A stretch of 64,000 nucleotides of DNA from an uncultured Apibacter sp. (GTDB lineage: Bacteria > Bacteroidota > Bacteroidia > Flavobacteriales > Weeksellaceae). The stretch spans positions 62,001 through 126,000 of the forward strand of contig CALYQD010000003.1 in NCBI GenBank assembly GCA_945280365.1, read 5' to 3'. The translations under genes were made by a program, and so were the position numbers. Of this stretch, positions 9,874 through 46,580 are shown one piece after another. The notes under the pieces were generated by a model. It was not told where the DNA came from. It did not search any database and saw only the letters and a program-made list of their open reading frames with translations. Within the stretch, counting starts at the first letter, position 1, and every line of letters starts with the position of its first letter.

Positions 9874-9895
9874 AAAATAAATAAATATAATTTTT

Positions 9896-9928: not shown

Positions 9929-9991
9929 AAAAAAAATTATTTTTTATAATCGTTATTTAATATTATTTCATATAAAATATGTTTTTTTATA

Positions 9992-10900: not shown

Positions 10901-11120
10901 TTTTTTGTTTTCAATTATTATAAAAATTATATTATCTTGACAATGAGAATTTATATTAATTTTTTTCATAAAAAACATAACAAATAATAGACCGTTACAT
11001 CAAAAAAACAAATATGATCACATTATTTAAATAAAAAAATGAAAGTACAAATACTCATAAAAATTTTAATGAATAATAAACTTTTCCAATTGTCTTTTGT
11101 CTAAATAATAAGAAATAAAA

Positions 11121-11663: not shown

Positions 11664-11678
11664 TTAATTAAGACACAA

Positions 11679-12296: not shown

Positions 12297-12738
12297 AATT
12301 AAATTTCTATTAGAAATAAAAACGCAGTAACTCATTACAATCAATTGTAATCGCTGTTAATAAGCATTCTTTAAGTTTTCAGCAAACAAGCCGGTAACCT
12401 GTCTTCCCCCAATTTCGATGACTGTAATTGATTACGATTCTAAAATATCTATACTTTTTCAAATACACTCTTCAATCCTATAAATTATTGGATTGCTATC
12501 TTTGTCTTTTTCTGAATACCGTATAAATCTCATTAATTGATACGAAATTAAGGGGGGCATGGACTTGATGTAGAATTATTCGAATACATATCTTATTTTC
12601 TTGAACTTATTCCCATATAAACGGATGAAAATAGTAGTGAGATAGAACTTTAATAATAATTAAACCAAAGTATAAATTTAAGTTTATTGTGTGTCAATCG
12701 ATTTTCTGTCGGTCCTTTATTTTAAAATAATTAAAAAA
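12297..12738. other. Gene-free stretch with palindromes, possible unresolved gene remnant
   Basis: No open frame of useful size. Two related palindromic pieces (ATTACAATCAATTGTAAT near 12335-12352 and TGTAATTGATTACGA near 12423-12437) face each other across about 70 bases. The minus strand gives short protein-like stretches (for example I-E-I-G-G-R-Q-V-T-G-L-F-A-E-N-L), which could be a decayed gene I cannot name. Confidence 0.35.
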
Positions 12739-13437
12739 TTAGGAATGGGTATACTCAAAAAAGGCTTCTTCTAAAGTTGAATATTTACCTTTAAATTCTT
12801 CAATGCTTCTATCTTGAATAATAGAGCCTTTATTTAAAAGTATTACTCTTGAGCATAAAGCTTCTACTTCTTGCATTATATGAGTGGATAAAATAACGGT
12901 TTTCATTTGTCCTAATTCTTGGATTAATTGTCTTATTTCAATTATTTGATTAGGATCCAATCCATTGGTTGGCTCATCTAAAATTAAAATTTCCGGATCA
13001 AATAGAATTGCTTGGGCAAGTCCCACGCGTTGTTTATAGCCTTTAGATAATTGACTAATTTTTTTATTTTGTTCCTTTTGTAAGCCAACCTTTTCAATCA
13101 CCTTAGAAATTCCATCGATAGTTGTTTTATGAATAGCTGCTACAAAATTTAAATATTCTTTTACATACATATCCATATATAAAGGATTATTTTCGGGAAG
13201 ATATCCAATTATGGATTTGGTTTTAAAAGAAAATTTTTGAGTATCCATACCATTGACTAAAATACTTCCCTTATCAAATGAAAGCGATCCCGTTATAGAA
13301 CGCATCATAGTTGTTTTACCTGCCCCATTTGGACCTAATAAGCCAACAATTTCTCCTTGCTTTATTTCCAAAGAAATGTTATTTAATGCAACTTGTTCCT
13401 TATATTGTTTAGATAGATTTTGTATTTTTACAGACAT
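12739..13437 (-). CDS. ABC transporter ATP-binding protein, GldA-like
   Basis: A 232-residue ABC ATPase. It has Walker A (G-P-N-G-A-G-K-T-T), the Q-loop region replaced by L-P-E-N-N-P-L-Y (characteristic of GldA and related ATPases), signature L-S-K-G-Y-K-Q-R, Walker B (I-L-I-L-D-E-P-T-N-G-L-D) and H-loop (S-T-H). It closely resembles the gliding-motility ATPase GldA but lacks that protein's longer C-terminal part (about 300 residues in gliding flavobacteria). No GldF/GldG permease genes are in the window. It may power an unrelated ABC-2 exporter encoded elsewhere. Confidence 0.8.
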   Translation of the reverse strand: MSVKIQNLSKQYKEQVALNNISLEIKQGEIVGLLGPNGAGKTTMMRSITGSLSFDKGSILVNGMDTQKFSFKTKSIIGYLPENNPLYMDMYVKEYLNFVAAIHKTTIDGISKVIEKVGLQKEQNKKISQLSKGYKQRVGLAQAILFDPEILILDEPTNGLDPNQIIEIRQLIQELGQMKTVILSTHIMQEVEALCSRVILLNKGSIIQDRSIEEFKGKYSTLEEAFFEYTHS

Positions 13438-13518
13438 TTTAAAAGAATAATATTTAAAATTGATGTAAATATAATACTATTAAAATAAAAAATAAACACT
13501 GTTTATTACCAACCATTT

Positions 13519-14346
13519 ATGAAATCAGTATCAATACAAGGAATAAAAGGCTCTTTTCATCATGAAGCCGTAAAAAACTTTTTCCAAGATCAAAATGTGG
13601 AAATAATTGATAGTCCCACCTTTAAATCGGTAGTGGAAGATGTGATCAGTGGTAAAGCAAATTACGGGATGATAGCTATAGAAAATTCAATCGCCGGAGC
13701 AATTTTACCAAATTATAGTCTAATAACTAAATATAAGTTACATATTATTGGAGAAGTTATTTTACCAATTAAACTTCATCTCTTAGCGTTACCAGAAGAA
13801 ACTTTAGATTCTATTTACGAAGTTAGGACGCATCCAATGGCTTTATTACAATGTGAAAACTTTCTAGAACAATACCCTAATTGGAAGTTATTATCTAAAG
13901 ATGATACGGCTACTTGCGCTTATAATATCAGCTTAAATAAAATGAAAGGTATTGCCACTATTGGATCAAAATTGGCAGCTGAAATGTATCATTTAACCAT
14001 ATTAAAGGAAAACATTCACGATGTTTCAGATAATTATACGCGATTTTATCTATTAGCAGCATCACCTCAGAAAATAGAAAATTTTTCTAAAGCATCCCTT
14101 TATTTTACTACCGATCATACAATGGGAAGCTTGGCGAGAGTATTGAATATACTTGCTAAATATAAAATAAATATAACTAAAATTCAATCTGTACCTCTTA
14201 AAGGATCTATTTTTCAATATTCTTTCCATGCGGATATTCTAACCAATGGAGAAAAAGACGATAATTATTACAAAGCATTAGAAGAAATCAAACAAAATAC
14301 AGGTTTTTTAAATGTTTTAGGTGAATATAAAGAATATAAGGTTTAA
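13519..14346 (+). CDS. pheA: Prephenate dehydratase
   Basis: Converts prephenate to phenylpyruvate in phenylalanine synthesis. The 275-residue protein has the catalytic domain (G-x-K-G-S-F-H-H-E-A, A-I-E-N-S-I-A-G, and the T-R-F-Y-L-L-A motif containing the catalytic Thr-Arg-Phe) and a C-terminal ACT domain (G-S-L-A-R-V-L-N-I-L-A). The ACT domain usually binds phenylalanine for feedback control. There is no chorismate mutase domain, so it is the monofunctional form. A membrane protein gene starts two bases after its stop and is probably co-transcribed. Confidence 0.93.
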   Translation: MKSVSIQGIKGSFHHEAVKNFFQDQNVEIIDSPTFKSVVEDVISGKANYGMIAIENSIAGAILPNYSLITKYKLHIIGEVILPIKLHLLALPEETLDSIYEVRTHPMALLQCENFLEQYPNWKLLSKDDTATCAYNISLNKMKGIATIGSKLAAEMYHLTILKENIHDVSDNYTRFYLLAASPQKIENFSKASLYFTTDHTMGSLARVLNILAKYKINITKIQSVPLKGSIFQYSFHADILTNGEKDDNYYKALEEIKQNTGFLNVLGEYKEYKV

Positions 14347-14347
14347 A

Positions 14348-14803
14348 ATGCAATATGATTATATTTTGTTAGGAGGTACTGTTATTGGTGCTTTTTTTGG
14401 GTATTTTAAAGGTTTTTTAAAACAAATTTCATCATTTTTAGGCCTCGCATTAGGATATGCATTTTCTTCACTATTTATATCTGAATTTAACGATTTATTA
14501 TTAAGATATGGATTAATATCTAAAGAAACTTCCTTATGGGTCAGCTATATATGTATTTTTCTAATAATTTTTGTAAGCACGATTATTTTATCTAAATTAA
14601 TGGGAACTATTTTAAAAAAATTAGGTTTAGATTTTACAAACAAAATTGCTGGTATAATAGTAGGAGCTATAAAATATTTTTTTATAATTATGATTGTTTA
14701 TTGTTTTTTACACTTTTTAAATTTTATAAATAAAGAAAATTGTTCACAAAATTTAATAGATTTTATAACATTTTTTAAAACAGTTATTTTAAATATTATA
14801 TAA
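14348..14803 (+). CDS. CvpA-family membrane protein
   Basis: A 151-residue protein with four predicted membrane helices. It has the CvpA pattern: an opening helix with G-A-F-F-G-Y-F-K-G-F and later F-T-N-K-I-A-G-I-I-V-G-A-I-K. CvpA proteins are inner-membrane proteins linked to colicin V production and envelope stress, with poorly defined function. I chose the ATG at 14348, two bases after the pheA stop. The longer frame from 14321 would overlap pheA and adds only nine residues. Confidence 0.8.
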   Translation: MQYDYILLGGTVIGAFFGYFKGFLKQISSFLGLALGYAFSSLFISEFNDLLLRYGLISKETSLWVSYICIFLIIFVSTIILSKLMGTILKKLGLDFTNKIAGIIVGAIKYFFIIMIVYCFLHFLNFINKENCSQNLIDFITFFKTVILNII

Positions 14804-14804
14804 A

Positions 14805-15606
14805 ATGAAAAATAGATTTTACTGCAAAACAACTATATTTAGCAAATTTAATTTTATTTAGTAAAAAATTATTTGAAATACATTGAAAACTTATCCAGTT
14901 TTATATCCTACATAAGATTAAATTTATATCTTTATCTAAGAATTATTTTTGGTTTATATAATTATATTTACAAATTGAAATAACCGTATTCAGTCAGTTT
15001 TAATACCAATTATCCCCTATAGTTTTTAATTTGGTTTTTGGGAAAAGAGCAACGGATATTTTCTATCTTTCAACAGTAAATATTATAATCTTTATAGCTT
15101 TTATAGTAGGACTTATATTTTTAGAATAACTGATATTTTATATTTCCAACAAATTAGCAAAAAAATTACAGGAGATCATGATAGGAATTTAATGATAATA
15201 AAAAAGAATATTGGTAAAATGATCGAAATTTTTCAGACTATTAAATTGATACGAAACTAGTTATCTGCGATCATTCTAAAACTCCTAAAATTTATACACA
15301 TTTAACCTTGCACTATGATATAATTCCCACATTTATGGATACAGTATTAGGAGTACAAAATGATTATAATGAGTATAGTGTAGGTAAAAAACTTTATGAT
15401 TGTTCAGAAAGAGACTGGTTTATATCGGTTACAATCAAAAATATGCTATTATTGAAAAAAATATGATTATTAACGTTTATTCTTCGGGTATGTATGATGT
15501 GATAGATAAAAATTTAAATCCTGTTGAAGATAGAGAAGTTGATTTCAATATTGTGCATGAAGCCGTCATGGAAAATTCTCGCTTTTATAATATTTCTCAA
15601 AAATAA
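14805..15606 (+). pseudogene. YejM-like membrane sulfatase (DUF3413 type), decayed
   Basis: Pieces of one gene are recognisable in order. A membrane stretch reads Q-I-E-I-T-V-F-S-Q-F, then V-F-N-L-V-F-G-K-R-A-T-D-I-F-Y, then I-A-F-I-V-G-L-I-F-L-E. Sulfatase C-terminal pieces follow (H-L-T-L-H-Y-D-I-I-P-T-F-M and L-G-V-Q-N-D-Y-N-E-Y-S-V-G). After a frameshift near 15410 comes the end: Y-N-Q-K-Y-A-I-I-E-K, Y-S-S-G-M-Y-D-V-x-D-K-N-L-N-P. Several stops and a large deletion of the catalytic core separate these. The short open frame at 15400-15606 is only the last part. The remnant begins directly after cvpA. Confidence 0.85.
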
Positions 15607-15796
15607 TTTAAATTTTTTCTTGAAAAATATTTATTTAATATGTATACTTTATGGAAACTTTTAAAATAAATAGATAACAAAAAATAATTTTAAAGATATT
15701 TTTTTAAAGTATTGAATTAAATTTTTATTCAAGAAAATTTAGATACTTTTTAATACATATAAAAATTAGGAAGCAGAAAATATTCTATCAAAGTTG

Positions 15797-15804
15797 TACA
15801 TTTG
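15797..15804 (+). promoter_or_regulatory. Bacteroidota -7 box before prfA
   Basis: TACATTTG fits TAnnTTTG exactly, 22 bases before the ATG at 15827. It overlaps the upstream TTG at 15794, which argues against that codon as the start. Confidence 0.6.
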
Positions 15805-15826
15805 CAAACTTAAACCCACTTATCGT

Positions 15827-16906
15827 ATGTCAGATTTAGTATTAAAATTAGAGGCTATTAAACAAAGATTTGATGAAGTTTCTGATTTGATTATACAACC
15901 GGATGTAATCTCAGATCAGAAAAGATATGCCCAACTTAACAAAGAATACAAAGACTTAAATAAAATTGTAGATATATATCATCAATACAAATCTTTATTA
16001 AATACAGTTTCCGATGCAGATGAAATTATAAAAGATGGGAAAGATGCTGATATGGTTGAGTTAGCTAAAGAAGAAAAAAATGATGCTTTAGCAAAAATTC
16101 CTCAAATGGAAGAGAACATTAAATATATGTTGATTCCAAAAGATCCCGAAGATGATAAAAATATAACCGTAGAGTTGAGAGCAGGAACAGGAGGAGATGA
16201 ATCGGCCATATTTGTAGAAGATGTATTTCGTATGTATAGCATGTATTGGAGACAAAAAGGTTGGAATTTCGAGGTGGTGGATGCGACCGAAGGAAGCGTA
16301 AAAGGATATAAGGAAATGATCATTAACGTTAGTGGGGAAGGTGCTTACGGTATAATGAAATTTGAATCGGGTGTACATCGTGTGCAAAGAGTTCCTGAAA
16401 CTGAATCACAAGGAAGAGTACACACCTCTGCTATAACGGTAGCCGTTTTGCCTGAAGCGGAAGAGGTTGACGTAGAGATTAATCCGGCAGATTTGGAATA
16501 TCAAACTGCACGTTCCAGTGGAGCAGGAGGACAGAATGTTAATAAGGTGGAAACCAAAGTACAGCTCACGCATAAACCAACAGGTATCATGATTCAATGC
16601 CAAGTTGCACGTTCACAACACGCCAATAGGGAAATGGCTTTGCAAATGCTTCGTAATAAGTTGTATGATATGAAACTTCAGGAACACCTTGATAAAATTT
16701 CTGCTCATAGAAAAACCATGGTATCTACAGGTGACCGTTCTGCAAAAATTCGTACGTACAATTATCCACAAGGACGTGTGACCGACCATCGTATCAATAA
16801 ATCCATCTATAATTTAGATAACTTTATGAATGGAGATATTGATGAAATGATTGAAGCTGTGAAAATTGCAGAAAATGCAGAAAAATTAAAAGGGCAAGAA
16901 GATTAA
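15827..16906 (+). CDS. prfA: Peptide chain release factor 1
   Basis: Recognises UAA and UAG stop codons and triggers peptide release. The 359-residue protein has the GGQ loop at residues 234-236 ([10 protein letters not shown]) and a P-x-T codon-recognition tripeptide (P190-E-T192) that marks RF1 rather than RF2 (SPF). [15 protein letters not shown] precedes it. I chose the ATG at 15827: the TTG at 15794 adds 11 residues not seen in the family and overlaps the -7 box. Confidence 0.96.
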
Positions 16907-17048
16907 TTTTTTTTCATTTATTACTTAATTAACTTATAATAAATAAAGATTACCCTATATATTATCTTATTTTATATTTTAAAGTATAATTAGAAAAGTA
17001 AATAATCTAATCATTCGAATTAAGCGATTATCAATAGTAATAAACTTT

Positions 17049-31913: not shown

Positions 31914-33095
31914 ATGAGGAAAATTCTATTAGTACTGTTAACATTAGTTACGACTCAATCCTCAATATATGCTCAAGAGGATTTAATAAAAAAAATTATA
32001 AATAATAAATCAAATAATACTAATTTCCAATTTACTCTAGTCAAACAGCTTGATAACACTACTGTGAAACAACAAGGTTCATCCGGAACATGCTGGAGCT
32101 ATGCAGGAAATTCTTTTCTTGAGTCTGAAATTTATAAAAAACATAAACGCGTTCTAGATATAGCAGAAATCTATACTGCAAGAAAAACTTATGAAGAAAA
32201 GGCCAAAAATTATGTAATGATGGACGGGTTTTTAAATTATGGAGATGGCGGTTCATTGCATGATGTAATCAATATGTATAAAAAATATGGGATAATGCCC
32301 CAAGAAGCATATACTGGATTAATCAATGGAGCTGTAAAGAACAATTTTAAAGAAATGCAGATAGAGCTTAAAAATAATTTGGATAAAATTATAGCTAAAA
32401 AAGCTCCTATAAATACTAACTGGACTATAAATTTTTCATCAATATTAGATAAATATTTAGGAAAAGTTCCTGAAACATTTATATATAATGGAAAAGAGTA
32501 TACTCCCAAAACATTTGCCGAAGAGATAGTGGATTTAAATCCAGATGATTATATTGAAATTACCTCATTTAAAGATTACGAATACTATAAACAATTTTAT
32601 CCACCCTTGCCGGATAACTGGAGCGGAGATAAGATGTATAACATACCTATGGCTGAACTTACGGATTGTATAGATCATGCTTTATCATTAGGATATACCG
32701 TTTGCTGGGCAACTGATGTAAGTGAAGCATATTTCAGCTGGAAAAACGGACTGGCTTATGTTCCTGATACAAATCTATATGCAATATCTTCGGAAGAGCG
32801 GGCAAATTTATTTACACATCCAAAACCTGAGAAAATTATAACAGAAGAAATGCGTCAGGAAGCTATTAATAATAAATCAACAACTGATGATCATGCTATG
32901 CATATAGTAGGTATTTCAAAAGATCAAAACGGTAAAGAATATTATTTAATTAAAAATTCCTGGGGAGATACCAATGATTTCAAAGGATATTTATATGTAA
33001 CGAAAACTTACGTTCAATTTAAAACTACAGCAATTTTACTTAATAAAAATGCACTTCCTAAAAAATTAAGAAAAAAACTAAACTTAATGTCTTAA
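31914..33095 (+). CDS. Secreted C1-family cysteine aminopeptidase (PepC/bleomycin hydrolase-like)
   Basis: A 393-residue protein with an N-terminal signal peptide (cleavage near I-Y-A-Q). The papain-type catalytic set is intact: Cys60 in G-S-S-G-T-C-W-S-Y-A, His327 in D-D-H-A-M-H-I-V-G-I, and Asn348 in I-K-N-S-W-G-D. The closest family is bleomycin hydrolase/PepC (C1B). That family is normally cytoplasmic, so the exported form suggests degradation of peptides outside the inner membrane. It starts eight bases after lepB and is the last gene before the accessory island. Confidence 0.85.
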   Translation: MRKILLVLLTLVTTQSSIYAQEDLIKKIINNKSNNTNFQFTLVKQLDNTTVKQQGSSGTCWSYAGNSFLESEIYKKHKRVLDIAEIYTARKTYEEKAKNYVMMDGFLNYGDGGSLHDVINMYKKYGIMPQEAYTGLINGAVKNNFKEMQIELKNNLDKIIAKKAPINTNWTINFSSILDKYLGKVPETFIYNGKEYTPKTFAEEIVDLNPDDYIEITSFKDYEYYKQFYPPLPDNWSGDKMYNIPMAELTDCIDHALSLGYTVCWATDVSEAYFSWKNGLAYVPDTNLYAISSEERANLFTHPKPEKIITEEMRQEAINNKSTTDDHAMHIVGISKDQNGKEYYLIKNSWGDTNDFKGYLYVTKTYVQFKTTAILLNKNALPKKLRKKLNLMS

Positions 33096-33749
33096 AAATT
33101 TTTTAATTAATAAAAATTTCATGAGGTATGAGTAATTTTATGTCTCAAAAACCTATTTAACATAATATAAATTATAGGTAAATTAAATATTTTAAAATTA
33201 AGACAGTATTTACACATTTTCCTATAATGTCATATTATGTCTCCGCAAAAGCTCCGGGCTTCGCCTAAATAAAACTTTTCTGAGACAAACACATTTTACA
33301 GAGTTTTCCTATAATTTGTCATTATGTGTAAATAGCCGCGCAGCCAACCCGGTTTGTTTAAAAAATTTACAGCCTTTACAATAAAAAATTACGCTGTAAA
33401 TTTTTCTGAACAAATCCTACACACGGCCAGCCTGTGCTATTTAATTTTTTGGCCAACACCTGAGAAAAAAAAATTTATTTTTTTTATAACTTTTAAGGTG
33501 CTTTATTATATTTTTAATTTGAAAACATGACGAAAAATAAATGTTTGAGCGATAGCGAGTTTTTATTTTTCTTGAATTTTTTGTTTCTTTTTTTCACTTC
33601 TTTAATAAATTTTTAAGGAGTTCAAGAATGCTAAGCATTTGTCTCAAAACAAATGAATTAATTAATTTGTGAATACATAAAAATAATAATTCCTCTACTT
33701 TTAAAAAGAATGAAAAAGCTATTTCCTATTTAACATAATATTTAACCAT

Positions 33750-33953
33750 TCAAACCTTATTAATAACAATCCTTTTTTTACTATGTTTAATTACTATTTG
33801 GTCTCCGGTTCTGAAACCCGAATCTTGCAACCACTTGCCTGCCATACGTATTTCCGGAAAAGATATATAACGGAAACTGGCTCTTTTAAAATCCCTCTCA
33901 TATACCTTTATAATACGTATTTTGGCTTTGCTTTTATATTTACGAACTTCCAT
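33750..33953 (-). CDS. SymE-family toxin-like protein, copy 1
   Basis: A 67-residue basic protein. A lysine/arginine-rich N-terminal strand leads into the SymE core (F-P-E-I-R-M-A-G-K-W-L-Q-D-S-G-F, then G-D-Q-I-V-I and a final R-I-V-I). SymE proteins have an AbrB-like (SpoVT) fold and include an SOS-induced type I toxin repressed by an antisense RNA. Whether this one is toxic is unknown. I chose the ATG at 33953, which gives the usual family length; the open frame to 33983 adds ten residues. It differs from the other two copies at the last two residues. Confidence 0.7.
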   Translation of the reverse strand: MEVRKYKSKAKIRIIKVYERDFKRASFRYISFPEIRMAGKWLQDSGFRTGDQIVIKHSKKRIVINKV

Positions 33954-34101
33954 ATATTTCTGATTTTTTCTTTCTTTCTGCAAAGGAAGTTCTACCCTGC
34001 CCGATATCCAATTTTACAAACTGATTTTTTACCAAATACCATTGATTTTTTATCTTATATTTTATTTAACTATTTTGTATACTAGCCCAAAAATAAATTA
34101 G

Positions 34102-34109
34102 TACGTTTG
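34102..34109 (+). promoter_or_regulatory. -7 box of XRE copy 1
   Basis: TACGTTTG fits TAnnTTTG and ends four bases before the ATG of the broken XRE gene, the same place as in the two intact copies. Confidence 0.5.
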
Positions 34110-34113
34110 CCTT

Positions 34114-34266
34114 ATGACTATAGATAAGACAACATCCAGAAAGATACATCAAGGTAGAAATATTAAACGTTTTCGTGAAATATAAGGTATAAAACAGGAA
34201 GCGTTGGCTTTTGATATGAGAGATTCCCAGTCTTCTATATCTGATTATGAATATAAGGAAACATTC
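34114..34266 (+). pseudogene. XRE-family regulator, truncated copy
   Basis: The first 51 codons match the intact XRE genes at 37601 and 40556, but codon 24 is TAA (leucine in the others). Further changes disturb the helix-turn-helix (D-M-R-D-S-Q-S-S instead of D-M-G-V-S-Q-S-S). The homology stops abruptly after the E-T-x-x region, where unrelated sequence follows. It cannot make a repressor, so any control of the adjacent SymE gene from this copy is lost. Confidence 0.85.
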
Positions 34267-34278
34267 AATTAGTCAAAG

Positions 34279-34665
34279 AAATTTTTCAAATCGTTATCAT
34301 TTACATTATTAATCTAGATGCCTATCAAAAATAAATTAAAATTCCATTATTAAAAATACTAGACAATCTTGTCATAAATAATAAAATAATAACTATTATA
34401 GGGTAAAATAAAGATTATAAAATAAAAAAAATGTTAAATTCGTAACCAATACTCAATCTATATAATGGATTCACAAGATAAGCTAAAAAAAAATTCTGAT
34501 CATAAATTTGAAAAAGAAGTATCGTCTTTTCAATCAGATAATGAACTGTTTATTCAGGATGATTCTATCATAAGTAAACACAAAAAAAAAGCAAGAAACG
34601 CAAAACCGGTTCAAATCTTGGAAAATTATAACGGTTCAGATGAAGATTTGAAAAGTCTAGTAAAA
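34279..34665. repeat. Left copy of the GNAT/yciH start region
   Basis: Collinear with 46047-46449. It contains the first codons of the divergent GNAT gene (start codon on the minus strand), the whole spacer and the first 67 codons of yciH, with scattered substitutions and small gaps. The two copies flank about 11.8 kb in direct orientation. Confidence 0.85.
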
Positions 34666-35154
34666 AGTGATTTTAAATTTTGGGGGTGGGACAAAAAACC
34701 TAGGACAATGTTGCGTTTTATAAAACCAGGTGATATATTTTGCGTCAAACTGAATGATAAAAAATATATTTTCGGCAGAATTATTTCAAAAATATTTTTT
34801 GGTCGTGTTGCAGAGATTTTTAACTATGTATCATCAACGCCCGAAATAGAAGTCGAATACATTGATTCATCCAAGAGAATGTTTGCACCAATAGTATTAG
34901 ATAGTTATACGCTATTTGATCGGAAGTTTGAAAAAGAAGCAGATTGGCGGATTATAGGACATCAGAATGATTATATACCTACAGATGTTGATGATGTTTA
35001 TTTTACCTTCGGTGAAGGAGCATATTGTAAAAAGGTTGATATTTGGGATAATGACACCCTTATATCAGAAAGCGAGGCTAAAAAATTACCCAAATTAGCT
35101 CCTCGGTGTGATTTTGATGTGAAGCAGCTACTAAAAGAATATATAAATGAATAG
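34465..35154 (+). CDS. Chimeric protein: YciH/SUI1 N-terminus fused to Imm26-like immunity domain
   Basis: A 229-residue open frame of two parts. Residues 1-66 match the start of the intact yciH at 46245 (D-H-K-F-E-x-E-V-S-S, I-L-E-N-Y-N-G-S-D-E-D-L-K-S-L). Residues 68-229 are the first of four Imm26-like copies (G-D-I-F-C-V-K-L-N-D-K-K-Y-I-F-G-R). The seam lies at the codons where the other copies have ATG-AAT. The SUI1 fold itself is cut off, so the N-terminal part cannot work as a translation factor. The fusion keeps the yciH promoter region, which could drive the immunity array. Translation could also start internally. Confidence 0.75.
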   Translation: MDSQDKLKKNSDHKFEKEVSSFQSDNELFIQDDSIISKHKKKARNAKPVQILENYNGSDEDLKSLVKSDFKFWGWDKKPRTMLRFIKPGDIFCVKLNDKKYIFGRIISKIFFGRVAEIFNYVSSTPEIEVEYIDSSKRMFAPIVLDSYTLFDRKFEKEADWRIIGHQNDYIPTDVDDVYFTFGEGAYCKKVDIWDNDTLISESEAKKLPKLAPRCDFDVKQLLKEYINE

Positions 35155-35235
35155 TCAAATATCAAGTGTTCAAACTGATTTAAGGAGATATGTGTGTAAA
35201 GGGAATGACAGTAACAGAATAAAAAGGGACAGTTA

Positions 35236-35727
35236 ATGAATGATTTTAAATTTTGGGGATGGGATAAAAAACCTAGGACAATGTTACGTTTTATAAAACC
35301 AGGTGATATATTTTGCGTCAAACTGAATGATAAAAAATATATTTTCGGCAGAATTATTTCAAAAATATTTTTTGGTCGTGTTGCAGAGATTTTTAACTAT
35401 GTATCATCAACGCCCGAAATAGAAGTCGAATACATTGATTCATCCAAGAGAATGTTTGCACCAATAGTATTAGATAGTTATACGCTATTTGATCGGAAGT
35501 TTGAAAAAGAAGCAGATTGGCGGATTATAGGACATCAGAATGATTATATACCTACAGATGTTGATGATGTTTATTTTACCTTCGGTGAAGGAGCATATTG
35601 TAAAAAGGTTGATATTTGGGATAATAAAACCTTTATATCAGAAAGCGAGGCTAAAAAATTACCCAAATTAGCTCCTCGGTGTGATTTTGATGTGAAGCAG
35701 CTACTAAAAGAATATATAAATGAATAG
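35236..35727 (+). CDS. Imm26-like immunity protein, copy 2
   Basis: A 163-residue soluble protein with the Imm26 signature: K-K-P-R-T-M-L-R-F-I-K-P-G-D-I-F-C-V-K-L, then Y-I-F-G-R-I-I-S-K-I-F-F-G-R. Imm26 proteins protect producer cells against toxin domains of polymorphic toxin systems (contact-dependent or type VI-like delivery). No toxin gene lies in the window, so it may defend against neighbours' toxins. It lies 81 bases after copy 1. An AAAAAGGGA purine tract lies just upstream, a possible ribosome site. The family call is from recalled motifs. Confidence 0.75.
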   Translation: MNDFKFWGWDKKPRTMLRFIKPGDIFCVKLNDKKYIFGRIISKIFFGRVAEIFNYVSSTPEIEVEYIDSSKRMFAPIVLDSYTLFDRKFEKEADWRIIGHQNDYIPTDVDDVYFTFGEGAYCKKVDIWDNKTFISESEAKKLPKLAPRCDFDVKQLLKEYINE

Positions 35728-35808
35728 TCAAATATCAAGTGTTCAAACTGATTTAAGGAGATATGTGTGTAAAGGGAATGACAATAATAGAATAAAAAGG
35801 GACTGTTA

Positions 35809-36300
35809 ATGAATAATTTTAAATTTTGGGGATGGGATAAAAAGCCTCGGACAATGTTACGTTTTATAAAACCAGGTGATATATTTTGCGTCAAACTGAA
35901 TGATAAAAAATATATTTTCGGCAGAATTATTTCAAAAATATTTTTTGGTCGTGTTGCAGAGATTTTTAACTATGTATCATCAACGCCCGAAATAGAAGTC
36001 GAATACATTGATTCATCCAAGAGAATGTTTGCACCAATAGTATTAGATAGTTATACGCTATTTGATCGGAAGTTTGAAAAAGAAGCAGATTGGCGGATTA
36101 TAGGACATCAGAATGATTATATACCTACAGATGTTGATGATGTTTATTTTACCTTCGGTGAAGGAGCATATTGTAAAAAGGTTGATATTTGGGATAATAA
36201 AACCTTTATATCAGAAAGCGAGGCTAAAAAATTACCCAAATTAGCTCCTCGGTGTGATTTTGATGTGAAGCAGCTACTAAAAGAATATATAAATGAATAG
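35809..36300 (+). CDS. Imm26-like immunity protein, copy 3
   Basis: Identical in length to copy 2 and differing from it in one residue at the N-terminus (N-N-F-K-F instead of N-D-F-K-F). The coding and spacer sequences are nearly the same as copy 2 base for base, so this duplication is very recent or is kept uniform by gene conversion. Tandem exact copies would be expected to expand and contract by recombination. Confidence 0.75.
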   Translation: MNNFKFWGWDKKPRTMLRFIKPGDIFCVKLNDKKYIFGRIISKIFFGRVAEIFNYVSSTPEIEVEYIDSSKRMFAPIVLDSYTLFDRKFEKEADWRIIGHQNDYIPTDVDDVYFTFGEGAYCKKVDIWDNKTFISESEAKKLPKLAPRCDFDVKQLLKEYINE

Positions 36301-36381
36301 TCAAATATCAAGTGTTCAAACTGATTTAAGGAGATATGTGTGTAAAGGGAATGACAATAATAGAATAAAAAGGGACTGTTA

Positions 36382-36876
36382 ATGAATAATTTTAAATTTT
36401 GGGGATGGGATAAAAAGCCTCGGACAATGTTACGTTTCATAAAACCAGGTGATATATTTTGCGTCAAACTGAATGATAAAAAATATATTTTCGGCAGAAT
36501 TATTTCAAAAATATTTTTTGGTCGTGTTGCAGAGATTTTTAACTATGTATCATCAACGCCCGAAATAGAAGTCGAATACATTGATTCATCCAAGAGAATG
36601 TTTGCACCAATAGTATTAGATAGTTATACGCTATTTGATCGGAAAACCGAAAAAGAAGGGGATTGGCGGATTATAGGACATCAGAATGATTATATACCTA
36701 CAGATGTTGATGATGTTTATTTTACCTTCGGTGAAGGAGCATATTGTAAAAAGGTTGATATTTGGGATAATAAAACCTTTATATCAGAAAGCGAGGCTAA
36801 AAAATTACCCAAATTAGCTCCTCGGTGTGATTTTGATGTGAAGCAGCTACTAAAAGAATATATAAAACTTGAATAG
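36382..36876 (+). CDS. Imm26-like immunity protein, copy 4
   Basis: A 164-residue protein, the most divergent of the four. It has R-K-T-E-K-E-G-D at the middle and ends in Y-I-K-L-E instead of Y-I-N-E, because the repeat stops just before its end and different sequence follows. The changes are clustered, which looks like a block exchange rather than scattered drift. It is probably the original right-hand end of the array. Confidence 0.75.
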   Translation: MNNFKFWGWDKKPRTMLRFIKPGDIFCVKLNDKKYIFGRIISKIFFGRVAEIFNYVSSTPEIEVEYIDSSKRMFAPIVLDSYTLFDRKTEKEGDWRIIGHQNDYIPTDVDDVYFTFGEGAYCKKVDIWDNKTFISESEAKKLPKLAPRCDFDVKQLLKEYIKLE

Positions 36877-37137
36877 TCAAATTTCTAGCGTTGGCTTTGT
36901 TTGTCTTTATATGTTCCGTAAAGGTTGCGCTATAATGATATAGGAATTTACCTTCCATATTAAAATACTATAATAATTTATAAAAATCAGTATTACTGAA
37001 CAAGATGTGCATAACACACTCTTTGTAGTTTATATAAACTAGTTGTACCAAAATCATAATACTATTAGTAGAGTTTCAAAGAAAATATCTTAAATTATAA
37101 ATTAGATGAAGCAACTGCTAAAATATCTAAAGTTTCA
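36877..37137. other. Spacer between the Imm26 array and module copy 2
   Basis: No gene seen. Short protein-like fragments on the plus strand cannot be assigned. The repeat module begins near 37138. Confidence 0.4.
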
Positions 37138-37240
37138 AGACAAATGAATTAATTAATTTGTGAATACATAAAAAATAATAATTCCTCTACTTTTAAAAGA
37201 ATGAAAAAGCTATTTCCTATTTTACATAATATTTAACCAT

Positions 37241-37444
37241 TCAAGCCTTAGTAATAACAATTCTTTTTTTACTATGCTTGATTACTATTTGGTCTCCGGT
37301 TCTGAAACCCGAATCCTGCAACCACTTGCCTGCCATACGTATTTCCGGAAAAGATATATAACGGAAACTGGCTCTTTTAAAATCCCTCTCATATACCTTT
37401 ATAATACGTATTTTGGCTTTGCTTTTATATTTACGAACTTCCAT
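37241..37444 (-). CDS. SymE-family toxin-like protein, copy 2
   Basis: A 67-residue basic protein identical to copy 3 and nearly identical to copy 1. The SymE/AbrB-like core is intact (P-E-I-R-M-A-G-K-W-L, G-F-R-T-G-D-Q-I-V-I). A longer frame reaches 37522 but begins with TTG or GTG and adds 26 residues. The ATG at 37444 gives the normal family length. An XRE regulator starts divergently 156 bases away. The pair is a candidate toxin/repressor unit, unlike the enterobacterial SymE-SymR RNA control. Confidence 0.72.
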   Translation of the reverse strand: MEVRKYKSKAKIRIIKVYERDFKRASFRYISFPEIRMAGKWLQDSGFRTGDQIVIKHSKKRIVITKA

Positions 37445-37588
37445 ATATTTCTGATTTTTTCTTTCTGCAAAGGAAGTTCTACCCTGCCCGATATTCAATT
37501 TTACAAACTGATTTTTCACCAAACATCACTGGTTTTTTATCTTATATTTTATTTCACTTTTTTGTATATTAGCCCAAAGATAAATTAG

Positions 37589-37596
37589 TACATTTG
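37589..37596 (+). promoter_or_regulatory. -7 box of XRE copy 2, predicted leaderless start
   Basis: TACATTTG fits TAnnTTTG exactly and ends four bases before the ATG at 37601. Transcription should begin at or next to the A of the start codon. TTTG at 37561-37564 is a possible but distant -33 element (24-base gap). Confidence 0.55.
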
Positions 37597-37600
37597 CCTT

Positions 37601-38008
37601 ATGACTATAGATAAGACAACATCCAGAAAGATACATCAAGGTAGAAATATTAAACGTTTTCGTGAAATATTAGGTATAAAACAGGAAACGTTGGCTTTTG
37701 ATATGGGAGTTTCCCAATCTTCTATATCAGATTATGAATCTAAAGAAACATTAGACGATAAAGTATTGGAAAAAATTGCCGGATTTTTAAAAGTTCCTAC
37801 AGAAGCAATTAAAAATTTTGATGAAGAACAGGCGGTGAATATTATTGCAAATACCTTTACAAGTAATGATACATCTACCTTAAATGCAATAAATCCACAT
37901 TGTACTTTTAATCCAGTTGATAAAGTAATGGAACTTTTTGAACGTTTATTGGAAAGCGAAAAAGAGAAAACCCAACTTATGAAGGATATTCTGGATAAGA
38001 TGAAGTGA
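37601..38008 (+). CDS. XRE-family helix-turn-helix regulator, copy 2
   Basis: A 135-residue DNA-binding protein. Residues 18-70 form the helix-turn-helix (N-I-K-R-F-R-E-I-L-G-I-K-Q-E-T-L-A, M-G-V-S-Q-S-S-I-S-D-Y-E). A variable middle follows, then an amphipathic C-terminal helix (V-D-K-V-M-E-L-F-E-R-L-L and K-E-K-T-Q-L-M-K-D-I-L). It is the likely repressor of the divergent SymE-like gene. The sequence is nearly identical to copy 3 up to about codon 54 and then diverges strongly. A membrane-protein gene follows 137 bases later. Confidence 0.85.
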   Translation: MTIDKTTSRKIHQGRNIKRFREILGIKQETLAFDMGVSQSSISDYESKETLDDKVLEKIAGFLKVPTEAIKNFDEEQAVNIIANTFTSNDTSTLNAINPHCTFNPVDKVMELFERLLESEKEKTQLMKDILDKMK

Positions 38009-38145: not shown

Positions 38146-38916
38146 ATGTTAATGAAAAAAAATATATATAGTTTAATCTTTTTATTTACTCTTAATTTAC
38201 CTTTATTTATATTTATTTTCATATTGAGTATAATACCTGAAGATAAATTTTTGAGTACAATACTTTATACTGTTATATCTTTTTTTTCTTATTTAATTAT
38301 TACTATTACATTAAGAAAAATAAGCTACAAATACAATAGCAAAGTTTTTAGTAAAATATGTAGAATAATTGAATTTCCATTGGATCTATTATTTATTTAT
38401 GTGAGATTTTTCGATCCTATAACGAGATTTCAATTTTCCTTATTACTATATTTTAGTATCTGTAATTTTATACCAGCAATTATATTCATTACATATTTTA
38501 TACTACAATACCCAAATATAAATTATGAATTATTTGTTTATTTATATATAACTCTTTATGTCATAATTTCTATTTTATTTAGAACTAATATTTTGCACTT
38601 AATATATAGCTTTCATTTTACTAACGCTAATACATTTAGTTCAAAAAAAATAACTCTATATATACTTTCTGAAAATAATATAAAAGCAATTATTTATTTT
38701 TCTTATTTTTTGTTACTAATATTAATAAATATTTACAATTTTAATAATTTTCCTCTCTTTAAAAATATAAATATAGATAAATCTGTACTTCAATCTTTTG
38801 CTACATATATTGCTTTTGAACGTTTTTATAATCACATAGAAAAAGTAAATTTTAAGCTTTCAGAATTCATAAATAAAATTTTAAGGGCAATGATAAGTGA
38901 ACTAAAAAATCGATAA
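38146..38916 (+). CDS. Uncharacterised multi-pass membrane protein (module 2 cargo)
   Basis: A 256-residue, very hydrophobic protein with about six predicted membrane helices (starting at residues 8, 36, 100, 128, 178 and, less clearly, 65). The cytoplasmic tail has N-H-I-E-K-V-N-F-K-L-S-E-F. No domain is recognised. Base composition is even more A/T-rich than the island average. The next gene starts five bases after its stop, so the two form an operon. ATG at 38146 and 38152 are both possible starts. Membrane effectors are common in abortive-infection units, but nothing here proves that role. Confidence 0.6.
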   Translation: MLMKKNIYSLIFLFTLNLPLFIFIFILSIIPEDKFLSTILYTVISFFSYLIITITLRKISYKYNSKVFSKICRIIEFPLDLLFIYVRFFDPITRFQFSLLLYFSICNFIPAIIFITYFILQYPNINYELFVYLYITLYVIISILFRTNILHLIYSFHFTNANTFSSKKITLYILSENNIKAIIYFSYFLLLILINIYNFNNFPLFKNINIDKSVLQSFATYIAFERFYNHIEKVNFKLSEFINKILRAMISELKNR

Positions 38917-39532: not shown

Positions 39533-40195
39533 TATAATCTTTTAGGTTTCTTTTCCCCTCCCCTTTTTTAAATTAAATAGCTCAAAGCTATGTAACATAA
39601 TGCAAGAACATTATAGGAAAATTAAACATTTCAGAATTCTGGCAGAATTAAAAGATTTTCCTATAATGTCATATTATGTCTGCGCAAAAGTTACTGATTT
39701 CTATTAAATACAACTTTTCTAAGACAAATACAGATTATATTAGTTTTCCTATAATTTGCCATTATATATAAGTAATCGCGTAGCCAACTCGTTTTGTTTA
39801 AAAAATTTACAGTATTTAAAAGCAGAAAATTACGCTTCGAATTTTTCTACACAAATTAAATTCCACGCACGGTCAGCTGTGATATTTAATTTTTTTAGCC
39901 AACACCTGAGAAAAGAAATTTTATTTTTTAAATGACTTTTAAGGTGCTTTATTATATTTTTAATTTGAAAACATGACGAAAAATAAATGTTTGAGCGATA
40001 GCGAGTTTTTATTTTTCTTGAATTTTTTGTTTCTTTTTTTCACTTCTTTAATAAATTTTTAAGGAGTTCAAGAATGCTAGGCATTTGTCTCAAAACAAAT
40101 GAATTAATTAATTTGTGAATACATAAAAAATAATAATTCCTCTACTTTTAAAAGAATGAAAAAGCTATTTCCTATTTTACATAATATTTAACCAT

Positions 40196-40399
40196 TCAAG
40201 CCTTAGTAATAACAATTCTTTTTTTACTATGCTTGATTACTATTTGGTCTCCGGTTCTGAAACCCGAATCCTGCAACCACTTGCCTGCCATACGTATTTC
40301 CGGAAAAGATATATAACGGAAACTGGCTCTTTTAAAATCCCTCTCATATACCTTTATAATACGTATTTTGGCTTTGCTTTTATATTTACGAACTTCCAT
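40196..40399 (-). CDS. SymE-family toxin-like protein, copy 3
   Basis: Same 67-residue protein as copy 2, with identical coding bases. It is divergent from the XRE gene at 40556, and the shared promoter region is also identical to that of copy 2. Because copies 2 and 3 cannot be told apart in this part, any repressor made from one module should be able to act on both. A frame open to 40477 without an ATG start is the alternative. Confidence 0.72.
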   Translation of the reverse strand: MEVRKYKSKAKIRIIKVYERDFKRASFRYISFPEIRMAGKWLQDSGFRTGDQIVIKHSKKRIVITKA

Positions 40400-40543
40400 A
40401 TATTTCTGATTTTTTCTTTCTGCAAAGGAAGTTCTACCCTGCCCGATATTCAATTTTACAAACTGATTTTTCACCAAACATCACTGGTTTTTTATCTTAT
40501 ATTTTATTTCACTTTTTTGTATATTAGCCCAAAGATAAATTAG

Positions 40544-40551
40544 TACATTTG
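40544..40551 (+). promoter_or_regulatory. -7 box of XRE copy 3, predicted leaderless start
   Basis: TACATTTG lies four bases before the ATG at 40556, the same arrangement as copy 2. Confidence 0.55.
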
Positions 40552-40555
40552 CCTT

Positions 40556-40969
40556 ATGACTATAGATAAGACAACATCCAGAAAGATACATCAAGGTAGA
40601 AATATTAAACGTTTTCGTGAAATATTAGGTATAAAACAGGAAACGTTGGCTTTTGATATGGGAGTTTCCCAATCTTCTATATCAGATTATGAATCTAAAG
40701 AAACATTAGACGATAAAGTGTTAGAAAAAATTGCCGGATTCTTAAAAGTTCCTGTGGAAGCCATCAAAAATTTTGATGAAAATTCAGCTATTAATGTTAT
40801 AGCTAATACATTTAACAATCACGACCATTCGAACCCTCAATTCGCTAGTATAATTAATAATTCGCCAAACTTTAATCCACTTGATAAAATGGTGGAGCTT
40901 TATGAACGTATGCTTCAACAACAAAAAGAAATGATTGAAAAGTTGGAGAGGTTGATTGATAAAAAGTAA
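40556..40969 (+). CDS. XRE-family helix-turn-helix regulator, copy 3
   Basis: A 137-residue protein. The DNA-binding part is the same as copy 2, so both should read the same operator. The C-terminal half is different in sequence but keeps the same plan: K-V-P-V-E-A-I-K-N-F-D, a polar variable middle, F-N-P-L-D-K-M-V-E-L-Y-E-R and a coiled C-terminal helix (E-M-I-E-K-L-E-R-L-I). Shared heads with different dimer or partner-binding tails could give module-specific sensing. The gene is followed by a leftover tail of the copy-2 type. Confidence 0.85.
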   Translation: MTIDKTTSRKIHQGRNIKRFREILGIKQETLAFDMGVSQSSISDYESKETLDDKVLEKIAGFLKVPVEAIKNFDENSAINVIANTFNNHDHSNPQFASIINNSPNFNPLDKMVELYERMLQQQKEMIEKLERLIDKK

Positions 40970-41060: not shown

Positions 41061-42134
41061 ATGAGTGAAATTAATAAACTAAACTTAATAAGCTCTAATA
41101 TATTAGAAATACATTATTGGTTTAATGATGATACTCATTCTATGGATGCAAATATTCAGAATAAATGTGAGTATGAGGTACTAACTATAATAAAAGAAGT
41201 CGCTAAACTTTTATCTATAGATATTAATATTGAAACAGAACCTATTGGAGAAGGAGGTCTCAAAAAATGGTTGAAAATAGTTTTAAAAAAAGAAAATAAG
41301 AAAGGAACAATAACTTCATCTATCGTTACTACTCTCATAGTTATTATTTTAACAAAATCTATTGAGAAACTTTCTGAAGATAAAGAAATGATTAATCTTA
41401 AAAAAGAAAATTTAAGACTTGAAAATGAGATACTTTATGAAAATAAAGAAATGATTAATCTTAAAAATGAAAATTTAAGACTTGAAAATGAGAAACTTTA
41501 TGAAGATAAAGAAATTAATGATCTTCTAAAAGAAAAATTAATACTTGAAAATGAAGATTTAAAACAAAATAAAGGTGAATATATTGAATCAATTGAATCT
41601 AGTACATACATAAAAAAAAGAAAATCAAACTTTTATGAGACTTTAGAAAAATATCCTAAAATTGAAAAAATTTCTTTTTCTGTAGTAGATAAAGATAAAA
41701 ATATCCAAGCAGCCGAAGGTTTTATAGAAAAAAAGGATTTTAATAATTTTATATTAGCATCAGATAATATAGAAACTTTTGAAGTAGAAAATGCTAAAAT
41801 TGAAATTATAGCCCCTGTTTTAAAAAAACAAAATTATAAATGGATGGGATATTATAATGATGAAGTAATATCATTCAATATGAAATCCGATGAATTTAAA
41901 AATTCAGTGGAAAATAAAGAAATTGAATTTATAAATGGTTTTTCTATTGAATGTCATCTAATAATTAAACAAAAAATAAATAATGAAGGTATTGTAATAA
42001 ATTACCAATACGATGTTACAAGAGTAAATTATTACTTTAAAAATGATATACCAAAAGAAACTGAAGAAGGAAAACTTTATAAATATATTAAAAAGGGTCA
42101 AGAAAATCAATTAAATTTATTTAAAGAAGATTAA
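41061..42134 (+). CDS. Uncharacterised protein with membrane segment and repeated coiled coil (module 3 cargo)
   Basis: A 357-residue protein in three parts. Residues 1-80 have a compact domain with H-S-M-D-A, C-E-Y-E-V-L-T-I-I-K-E-V-A and I-E-T-E-P-I-G-E-G-G-L. I believe this recurs in unrelated bacterial hypotheticals but cannot name it. Residues 90-108 form a hydrophobic segment (S-S-I-V-T-T-L-I-V-I-I-L). Residues 106-168 are a coiled coil built of three 21-residue repeats. The C-terminal 190 residues are mixed strand/helix with K-W-M-G-Y-Y-N-D-E-V-I. It looks like a sensor or effector with a cytoplasmic C-terminal domain. Confidence 0.6.
   Translation: MSEINKLNLISSNILEIHYWFNDDTHSMDANIQNKCEYEVLTIIKEVAKLLSIDINIETEPIGEGGLKKWLKIVLKKENKKGTITSSIVTTLIVIILTKSIEKLSEDKEMINLKKENLRLENEILYENKEMINLKNENLRLENEKLYEDKEINDLLKEKLILENEDLKQNKGEYIESIESSTYIKKRKSNFYETLEKYPKIEKISFSVVDKDKNIQAAEGFIEKKDFNNFILASDNIETFEVENAKIEIIAPVLKKQNYKWMGYYNDEVISFNMKSDEFKNSVENKEIEFINGFSIECHLIIKQKINNEGIVINYQYDVTRVNYYFKNDIPKETEEGKLYKYIKKGQENQLNLFKED
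41376..41564 (+). repeat. Three 63-bp in-frame repeats
   Basis: Units start at 41376, 41439 and 41502 and encode E-x-K-E-M-I-N-L-K-x-E-N-L-R-L-E-N-E-type coiled-coil segments. Units 1 and 2 are close to identical in DNA; unit 3 has drifted. The unit length keeps the frame, so copy number could change without breaking the gene. Confidence 0.85.
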
Positions 42135-43456: not shown

Positions 43457-44494
43457 ATGAAAAATATTATAACAGTTTTATCAATATTTTTATTCACATT
43501 AGTTATATCACAATCTAAAAAAAATCAAGAAAAAATGAAAACCATTGAAAAGTATACTTTTGACTTAAGCGATAAAGTTACAAGACAAAAAATAACTTTT
43601 AAAAATCGATATGGAATAACTCTTACCGGCGATCTCTATGTTCCCAAAAAGCATAACAATAAACCTTTTCCGGCATTAGCCATTTGCGGCCCCTTTGGAG
43701 CTGTCAAAGAACAATCATCTGGTTTATATGCAAATCAATTGGCTGAAAGAGGTTTTGTAACCCTGGCTTTCGACCCCTCTTTTACAGGAGAGAGTGGAGG
43801 AAACCCTCGTAATGTTGCTTCTCCGGATATCAATACGGAAGATTTTAGTTCGGCTGTAGATTTCCTTGGAATTCAGAAAATAGTAGATAGAAATCAAATC
43901 GGTATTATTGGAATTTGCGGGTGGGCAGGTTTCGCTCTTAATGCTGCTGCCGTAGATAAACGAATAAAAGCTGTCGTTACTACCAGTATGTATGATATGT
44001 CCAGAGTAATGGCAAAAGGTTACTATGATAAAATGACTAAAGAAGAACGCACAAAAATATTGGAAAAATTGGGAGAACAACGTTGGAAAGACGCCGAATC
44101 GGGTTTATTTCATGCCGGAGAATTAATAAATCCTGAAAAGTTAAAAGGAGATGAACCACAATTTATTAAAGATTATTACGAATATTACCGTACTTCTAGA
44201 GGATATCATGCACGTTCCTTAAATTCAACCGGCTCCTGGAATGCCACCAATCCGTTGTCATTTATGAATATGCCAATATTGACCTATATTACAGAAATAT
44301 CGCCACGTCCAATTCTTTTAATAGCGGGAGAAAACGCACATTCTCGATATTTCAGCGAAGATGCATATAAATCTGCCTCAGAACCTAAAGAATTATTAAT
44401 TATTCCAAACGCTGTTCATGTCGATTTATACGATAAAATCAGTAGCATTCCCTTTGATAAGATTGAAAACTTTTTTAAAGAAAATTTAAAATAA
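43457..44494 (+). CDS. Secreted alpha/beta hydrolase (YcjY / dienelactone hydrolase-like)
   Basis: A 345-residue protein with a signal peptide (cleavage near L-V-I-S-Q-S). The hydrolase domain has the opening Y-G-I-T-L-T-G-D-L-Y-V-P, L-A-I-C-G-P-F-G-A-V-K-E-Q, and F-D-P-S-F-T-G-E-S-G-G. At the nucleophile elbow it has G-I-C-G-W-A-G, so the nucleophile appears to be Cys rather than Ser, as in the YcjY-like group. The acid and His sites fall in L-I-A-G-E-N-A-H-S-R and N-A-V-H-V-D-L-Y. The base composition is less A/T-rich than the cargo genes just upstream. Substrate unknown. Confidence 0.8.
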   Translation: MKNIITVLSIFLFTLVISQSKKNQEKMKTIEKYTFDLSDKVTRQKITFKNRYGITLTGDLYVPKKHNNKPFPALAICGPFGAVKEQSSGLYANQLAERGFVTLAFDPSFTGESGGNPRNVASPDINTEDFSSAVDFLGIQKIVDRNQIGIIGICGWAGFALNAAAVDKRIKAVVTTSMYDMSRVMAKGYYDKMTKEERTKILEKLGEQRWKDAESGLFHAGELINPEKLKGDEPQFIKDYYEYYRTSRGYHARSLNSTGSWNATNPLSFMNMPILTYITEISPRPILLIAGENAHSRYFSEDAYKSASEPKELLIIPNAVHVDLYDKISSIPFDKIENFFKENLK

Positions 44495-45549: not shown

Positions 45550-46068
45550 TCACTTCTTTATCTCTAATTTCATCATAATATCCGTTTGTTTATCATCCCC
45601 TAATACAAAAATATGTTGATCAAATTCAACAAATCCGTTTTTCTTATAAAAATGTAGAGCTTTAGCATTTTTTTCCCAAACACCCAACCATATATAGCTA
45701 CATCTTTTCTCTTCAGCTATGGCAAGAGCTTTTTCAAATAACTGCTGTCCTACCCTTTGTTTCTGATAAGCATTCAAGACATAAATCCTTTCAATTTCCA
45801 AACTATTATAATCCTTACTCTCAGTTTGGGCTGTTCCAAAATTAATTTTTAAATATCCAATCACTTTATTTCCCGCTTCAGCAAAATAAAATTCTGAATC
45901 AGGATTGGTAAGTTCCGATTCCATTTGTAGATTATTAAAACTATTATGCACATAAATATTCATATTCTCTTTCGTATTTGAACTTCCGAAAGTTTCGACA
46001 AATGTTTTAATGCTTATATCCTGAAGAACATCCAAATCAGCCAAATAAATTTTTCTAATCGTTATCAT
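45550..46068 (-). CDS. GNAT-family N-acetyltransferase
   Basis: A 172-residue acetyl-CoA-dependent acyltransferase. It has the GNAT A motif (I-E-R-I-Y-V-L-N-A-Y-Q-K-Q-R-V-G-Q-Q-L-F, containing the Q/R-x-x-G-x-x acetyl-CoA loop) and the B motif near L-G-V-W-E-K-N-A-K-A-L-H-F-Y-K-K-N-G-F. This resembles RimI- or PaiA-like small-molecule acetylases. The substrate is unknown. It is divergent from yciH, and its first codons are part of the duplicated region found again near 34290. Confidence 0.88.
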   Translation of the reverse strand: MITIRKIYLADLDVLQDISIKTFVETFGSSNTKENMNIYVHNSFNNLQMESELTNPDSEFYFAEAGNKVIGYLKINFGTAQTESKDYNSLEIERIYVLNAYQKQRVGQQLFEKALAIAEEKRCSYIWLGVWEKNAKALHFYKKNGFVEFDQHIFVLGDDKQTDIMMKLEIKK

Positions 46069-46449
46069 TTACATTATTAATTTAGATACCTATCAAAAAT
46101 AAATTAAAATTTCCTTATTAAAAAATCTATCCGGCATAACAAACAATCTTATCATAAGTAGTAAAAATATTAGCTATTCTTGAATACAATAAAGATTAGA
46201 AATTAAAAAATTCCTAAATTCGTAACCAATACTCAATCTATATCATGGATTTACAAGATCAGCTAAAAAAAATATTTCCCGATCATAAATTTGAAGAAGA
46301 AGTATCGTCTTCACAATCGGAAAATGAACTGTTTATGCAGGATGACCCAATCGTTTGTAAATACGAAAAAAAAGGAAGAAACGGAAAACCGGTTACAATT
46401 TTGGAAAATTACAATGGTTCAGATGAAGATTTAAAAAGTCTGGCAAAAG
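46047..46449. repeat. Right copy of the GNAT/yciH start region
   Basis: Direct-repeat partner of 34279-34665; here both genes are complete. Confidence 0.85.
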
Positions 46450-46580
46450 AAATCAAATCCAAATTAGGCGTTGGTGGTTCAGTAAAAGATGATACTATCG
46501 TAATCCAAGGGAATTACCGAGATAAAATTATGGATATTTTAAAAGAAAAAGGATTTTCCATAAAACGTGTCGGAGGATAA
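46245..46580 (+). CDS. yciH: SUI1/YciH-family translation initiation factor
   Basis: A 111-residue protein related to eukaryotic eIF1. The N-terminal tail (about 50 residues) is acidic. The SUI1 domain follows: N-G-K-P-V-T-I-L-E-N-Y-N-G, L-A-K-E-I-K-S-K-L-G-V-G-G-S-V-K-D, I-V-I-Q-G-N-Y-R-D and K-x-K-G-F. By analogy it checks start-codon choice on the ribosome. A second, diverged copy of its first 67 codons is fused to Imm26 at 34465. The next gene begins 35 bases later. Confidence 0.9.
   Translation: MDLQDQLKKIFPDHKFEEEVSSSQSENELFMQDDPIVCKYEKKGRNGKPVTILENYNGSDEDLKSLAKEIKSKLGVGGSVKDDTIVIQGNYRDKIMDILKEKGFSIKRVGG

Follow-up and report, generated by a model that had tools for sequence, protein, structure and literature searches.

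Among the immunity gene arrays described so far, the closest to the locus reported here are the homogeneous polyimmunity loci of Zhang et al 2012 (PMC3482391), in which genes of one family lie in tandem and in the same orientation, with short gaps between them and no toxin gene. The prominent homogeneous loci consist of SUKH, Imm6, Imm11, Imm28, Imm33, Imm36 or Imm41 genes, and Imm26 is reported there only from heterogeneous loci. In the esaG and tipC T7SS arrays studied by Garrett et al 2022 (PMC9484751), tandem paralogues are separated by conserved gaps of equal length and recombination between the tandem copies drives the arrays. The rAID/AID clusters of Bacteroidales (PMC12247911) hold orphan immunity genes of a bacteroidete away from the effector, and a dose effect of orphan immunity has been reported for the Bacteroides rAID, while the origin of the copies was left unsaid. 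In addition, runs of orphan immunity genes have been described in V. cholerae by Kirchberger et al 2017 (PMC5361080).

In the present study, we analysed a stretch of 64,000 nucleotides (the window; positions 62,001 to 126,000 of contig CALYQD010000003.1, assembly GCA_945280365.1) from an uncultured Apibacter sp., which contains four tandem copies of an Imm26 gene (34669-36892). The copies lie head to tail on the plus strand, their reading frames are intact and their starts are 573, 573 and 573 bp apart. A first-pass annotation of this DNA had described four exactly spaced and nearly identical 573-bp copies, and this description is borne out by the spacing and by only 3-16 pairwise differences over 474 coding bases (CDS identity 96.6-99.4%). 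A copy family of such an exact period is far beyond chance. The unit had been taken to start at 34466, which needs correction, as the homology between units begins at 34668/34669 and the first 68 codons of the first open reading frame are derived from a SUI1-like gene. The features of the array and of this gene are the following:

34260-34668, plus strand: duplicate of a SUI1 region, 82.7% identical to 46027-46448, with the upstream region and codons 1-68 of a SUI1/eIF1-like gene (blastn of the window against itself).
34465-35154, plus strand: Imm26 copy 1, a chimera of a SUI1-like N-terminus and a complete Imm26 domain (ORF of 229 aa; PF15428 at residues 87-190, 61.5 bits).
35155-35235, plus strand: spacer 1, 81 bp from stop to start, containing part of a 29-codon open frame.
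35236-35727, plus strand: Imm26 copy 2 (ORF of 163 aa; PF15428 match).
35728-35808, plus strand: spacer 2, 81 bp (spacer comparison).
35809-36300, plus strand: Imm26 copy 3 (ORF of 163 aa; PF15428 match).
36301-36381, plus strand: spacer 3, 81 bp, identical to spacer 2 (spacer comparison).
36382-36876, plus strand: Imm26 copy 4, with its own 3' flank and clustered differences (ORF of 164 aa; PF15428 match).
46245-46580, plus strand: intact SUI1/eIF1-like gene, the source (or sister) of the duplicated piece (PF01253, E 8.1e-18).

The assignment to Imm26, earlier made from the letters alone, was confirmed by profile search, in which all four copies matched Pfam PF15428 with 61.5-65.1 bits against a cut-off of 23.3 (E 1e-16 to 8e-18). 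The domain is complete, with profile positions 1-105 of 107 covered in the copies scanned, and a search of the whole genome with PF15428 returned the four array copies above the cut-off and no further Imm26 gene. The closest relatives found for the protein are only 24-29% identical, those on plasmids only about 24%; no close relative was found in the genome_contigs, viral_contigs, phage and E. coli sets, and a search of solved structures gave no convincing one. The single-sequence AlphaFold model of copy 4 had a pLDDT of 39 and was set aside. Imm26 is present in 14 of 395 genomes of the order, in 9 of 395 of the phylum and in 12 of 395 of a further, partly overlapping sample, and in none of eight congeners. 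Adjacent copies occurred only in the genome of the window, the nearest pair elsewhere being about 7 kb apart; the array is thus the only near-identical tandem Imm26 locus in the Bacteroidota samples searched, to which this rarity applies. The sequence of the spacers has no match elsewhere in the genus (eight congeners searched). A 29-codon frame at 35148-35237, repeated in the other spacers, extends into the stop of the preceding copy and the start of the following one, and it is probably a non-coding chance frame. The idea that it is the remnant of a toxin end was dropped, as no credible relative occurred among the fetched loci and the changes between spacers mostly alter the peptide.

The number of four copies is that read from the assembly and could be an under-count. 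An assembler might also have made the copy number or the chimera, since the assembly is in 45 contigs and short reads resolve identical stretches of several hundred bases poorly. We consider such an artefact very improbable. The copies can be told apart by private differences, and the contig that contains the array is 217 kb long. The SUI1 piece differs by 17% from its source, which an assembler does not invent, and a collapse would lower the count and not raise it.

With four co-oriented genes of one family, gaps of 81 bp and no toxin gene among them, the array has the layout of the homogeneous polyimmunity loci, and the genome has one such Imm26 locus. SUKH arrays often consist of distant paralogues (PMC3482391), whereas the Imm26 copies are nearly identical and the first one is chimeric. 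The esaG copies are not identical and lie at a secretion locus with a toxin (PMC9484751); the Imm26 array has neither nearby and has almost no protein variation, although its gaps too are of equal length and its shared and private clustered differences may be signs of recombination between copies. Unlike the rAID clusters, the array has no tyrosine recombinase on its contig and consists of nearly identical copies of a single family. An assignment to rAID was ruled out on these grounds, with all four genes being copies of one Imm26 gene; the Phage_integrase matches of this genome lie on other contigs (C1, C4, C5, C7, C8 and C9; the array is on C3). For the V. cholerae arrays, effector displacement was given as the origin and duplication was expressly rejected (PMC5361080), whereas the Imm26 copies are plainly duplicates. 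Overall, the array is genuine and of a protective type that is largely to be expected; what is unusual is its chimeric first copy.

The differences between the copies are few and unevenly placed. Between copies 2 and 3 there are three differing coding bases and a single altered residue (position 3). The changes private to copy 1 are at codons 8, 10, 17, 131 and 133, those private to copy 4 at codons 19, 88, 89 and 93 and at its end. Codons 12 and 14 group copies 1 and 2 against copies 3 and 4. Codons 20-87 are the same in all four copies, and apart from the ends the amino acids differ only at four internal codons (89, 93, 131 and 133). Block exchange had been proposed from clustered changes in copy 4, and this is supported: the changes of copy 4 are clustered (codons 88-93 and its last codons), and a further cluster, at codons 131-133, belongs to copy 1. 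The amino-acid changes are mostly replacements of several bases in a codon (TTT/ACC, GCA/GGG, GAC/AAA), which look like short conversion tracts rather than point mutations. The middle copies are most alike and the edge copies have the private clustered changes; middle copies that stay alike while the edges drift would fit a pattern of unequal crossing-over.

These clustered replacements might also be tracts from a diverged relative, and the array might then be a reservoir in which recombination between copies makes new immunity specificities, as has been proposed for esaG. We regard this as quite doubtful, because only codons 89, 93, 131 and 133 vary in amino acid besides the ends, copies 2 and 3 are distinguished only by residue 3, and the known reservoirs contain clearly non-identical paralogues (PMC9484751, PMC12247911). 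The first-pass annotation had left dosage and diversification side by side as possible benefits. Dosage is the likelier of the two, because the proteins hardly differ; diversification fits poorly with the identity of codons 20-87 and with the near-identity of copies 2 and 3.

For the pairs of copies, dS ranges from 0.02 to 0.095, and dN/dS is 0 between copies 2 and 3 and 0.13-0.27 in each of the other five pairs. By these values the copies are under purifying selection. The exact register, near-identity and low dS agree with the earlier statement that the array is young or kept uniform. High similarity would be expected as well if one acquired gene had recently been duplicated in a neutral and transient way, with no benefit of dose, in an array that will collapse; the restriction of the gene to a single genome of the genus is in keeping with this. 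Nevertheless, single-base changes are mostly silent, differences outside three short blocks are mostly synonymous with all four frames intact, and the edge copies, at a dS of about 0.1, show that the array is not brand new. We therefore hold the neutral account to be unlikely.

The chimera at the head of the array was examined by comparison with the intact SUI1-like gene. The aligned duplicate (34260-34665) is about 83% identical to the upstream region and the first two-thirds of this gene, and its 68 codons are fused in frame to Imm26 copy 1, giving the protein of 229 aa. The non-coding part of the duplicate has several indels, the coding part has a net deletion of 3 bases and no stop. Between the duplicate and the intact gene dN/dS is 0.43, against 0.08 between the intact gene and that of congener G008, which indicates that the duplicate is relaxed, yet its frame is kept. 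The survival of the chimera frame through 17% divergence of its first part also weighs against a neutral duplication. Only half of the SUI1 domain is contained in the chimera, so that an activity as initiation factor is unlikely; the likelier role of the piece would be the supply of a control region and a start codon. A TAnnTTTG motif is absent from the duplicated upstream region. The left junction of the duplicate lies at AACAT, where it cuts the XRE gene of a flanking repeat.

The array lies between a C1 peptidase gene (31914-33095) and an alpha/beta hydrolase gene (43457-44494), and the content between these bounds is variable in the two nearest congeners. Besides the array, the following features were found here:

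33149-34265, plus strand: flanking repeat R1, a decayed SymE-like/XRE pair with the XRE gene cut after its first part (blastn of the window against itself).
37132-37859, no strand assigned: flanking repeat R2, 97% identical to 40087-40814 (blastn of the window against itself).
37241-37522, minus strand: SymE-like gene of R2 (PF08845 match).
37601-38008, plus strand: XRE gene of R2 (profile search and repeat comparison).
39584-40814, no strand assigned: repeat R3 (blastn of the window against itself).
40196-40477, minus strand: SymE-like gene of R3 (ORF and repeat comparison).
40556-40969, plus strand: XRE gene of R3 (ORF and repeat comparison).
41061-42134, plus strand: candidate phage-defence gene PDC-S42, the next load of the hotspot (PADLOC E 1.7e-97).

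At the same place congener G008 has a PDC-S06 ATPase (L039:2426-4639, PADLOC E 1e-237) and congener G007 a PDC-S56 protein (L040:13973-15901, PADLOC E 2.5e-196), and in more distant congeners ordinary genes follow the C1 peptidase. With such interchangeable loads, the region is a small hotspot for candidate defence genes, and the Imm26 array is one load. By sequence, the C1 peptidase comes closest to named records of Bergeyella and Riemerella (58-59%), which allows a Weeksellaceae-type placement. The three SymE-like/XRE repeats are 90-97% alike; R1 is about 90% identical to 39584-40707, and its 3' part 94.6% identical to 37132-37752. Congeners G007 and G008 also have relatives of the XRE region, at this place of the hotspot or close to it. 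A membrane protein gene (38146-38916) between two of the repeats has a very low G+C content of 18% and no Pfam or PADLOC match; a gene close to the C1 peptidase in congener G002 is 86% alike to it. Within the PDC-S42 gene, three 63-bp repeats (41363-41554) form an array in an apparent coiled-coil stretch. The chimera, the hotspot and the flanking repeats go beyond the first-pass annotation.

The setting of the array between SymE/XRE repeats and near the PDC-S42 gene could mean that Imm26 serves another purpose than immunity, for example as a partner of the SymE/XRE pairs or of the phage-defence load. However, the relatives of the XRE repeats in the same region of the congeners are found without Imm26, and the Imm26 proteins have no PADLOC match, which makes this highly unlikely in our opinion. 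The repeat-rich and rearranged state of the hotspot is also what the neutral duplication considered above could draw on. For the array itself, we favour the reading as an immunity locus.

Genes of this kind normally guard bacteria against the DNA-cutting toxins of rivals. The typical setting of an Imm26 gene is beside a URI/GIY-YIG toxin, but this is not required and orphan copies are known. Among the loci fetched, Imm26 relatives often adjoin Rhs effectors with GIY-YIG/URI nuclease ends. A Bernardetia plasmid has its Imm26 gene immediately 3' of a DUF6531 Rhs gene that is accompanied by VgrG and TssD, and the end of this Rhs protein matches GIY-YIG just above the Pfam cut-off (E 1.1e-4). An Rhs-type end beside the Imm26 gene of locus L056 is likewise above the cut-off (E 5.1e-5), and several other adjacent ends have a Y...YxG...E...N pattern without a Pfam match. 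At loci L047 and L051 the toxin end near Imm26 is HNH-like and not GIY-YIG. Zhang et al 2012 listed Tox-URI1 as the partner of Imm26 (PMC3482391). Because of this listing and of the GIY-YIG/URI Rhs ends beside the relatives, protection against the polymorphic toxins of neighbours, which the first-pass annotation had suggested, would be the best inference for the array.

In the genome itself the searches made found no URI/GIY-YIG toxin, either beside the array or elsewhere. The earlier statement that no toxin lies in the window stands for polymorphic toxins, as far as tested, but two SymE-like genes are present (37241-37522 and 40196-40477). The genome has a single DUF6531 Rhs gene, about 115 kb downstream of the array on the same contig and with VgrG upstream, whose toxin end resembles a Tse2-type ADP-ribosyltransferase (below the cut-off only) and has its own downstream partner gene. 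As the toxin end of this sole Rhs gene is of another type and comes with a partner gene, the array is an orphan for its likely toxin class. This Rhs locus (L058:8167-16937) also has a shortened VgrG fragment (8167-8571), which is a repeat of part of the full-length VgrG (9208-11361). Its Rhs gene is broken into two overlapping frames (12707-16060 and 15960-16937), which might reflect a genuine interruption or an error of sequencing. Congener G002, in its Rhs locus, carries an orphan cassette encoding a GIY-YIG domain (E 4.9e-6); this cassette is absent from the genome of the window. A congener Rhs locus (L150:8402-12000) has a trailing run of orphan toxin-end/partner cassettes, in which the neighbour of the GIY-YIG cassette (11357-11734) is not Imm26. 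In flavobacteria, Rhs proteins may be exported through type IX instead of type VI secretion (PMC8125069).

Taken together, we believe with moderate confidence that the array is a homogeneous orphan polyimmunity locus that arose by tandem duplication and was probably maintained for its dosage against incoming GIY-YIG effectors. One Imm26 gene would have been acquired without its toxin into the variable defence hotspot. It was then duplicated head to tail, apparently by recombination between units, into four 573-bp units of one orientation. The SUI1-like upstream region and its 68 codons became joined to the first unit, and they would probably give the start of transcription and translation for the whole run, because no terminator was found between the copies; neither a terminator-like site within the array nor strong structure in a spacer was detected. 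The proteins most likely bind and block the GIY-YIG/URI ends of the Rhs-type effectors of competitors. In this process, the repeated copies would raise the dose of one protein and not its range, and unequal crossing-over together with short conversion tracts may keep the middle copies alike while the edges drift.

A more far-reaching account can be offered only tentatively. Capture of the SUI1 control region followed by amplification may have given a high-dose Imm26 shield within the phage-defence hotspot, with the 229-aa chimera as a working protein, so that one chromosomal spot might protect against phages and rival bacteria. At this locus, an anti-rival immunity gene stands among candidate phage-defence genes that are interchangeable. 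The array also separates the effect of dose from the origin of the copies, because these are almost the same and clearly arose through tandem duplication, and their number could be changed by simple deletion.
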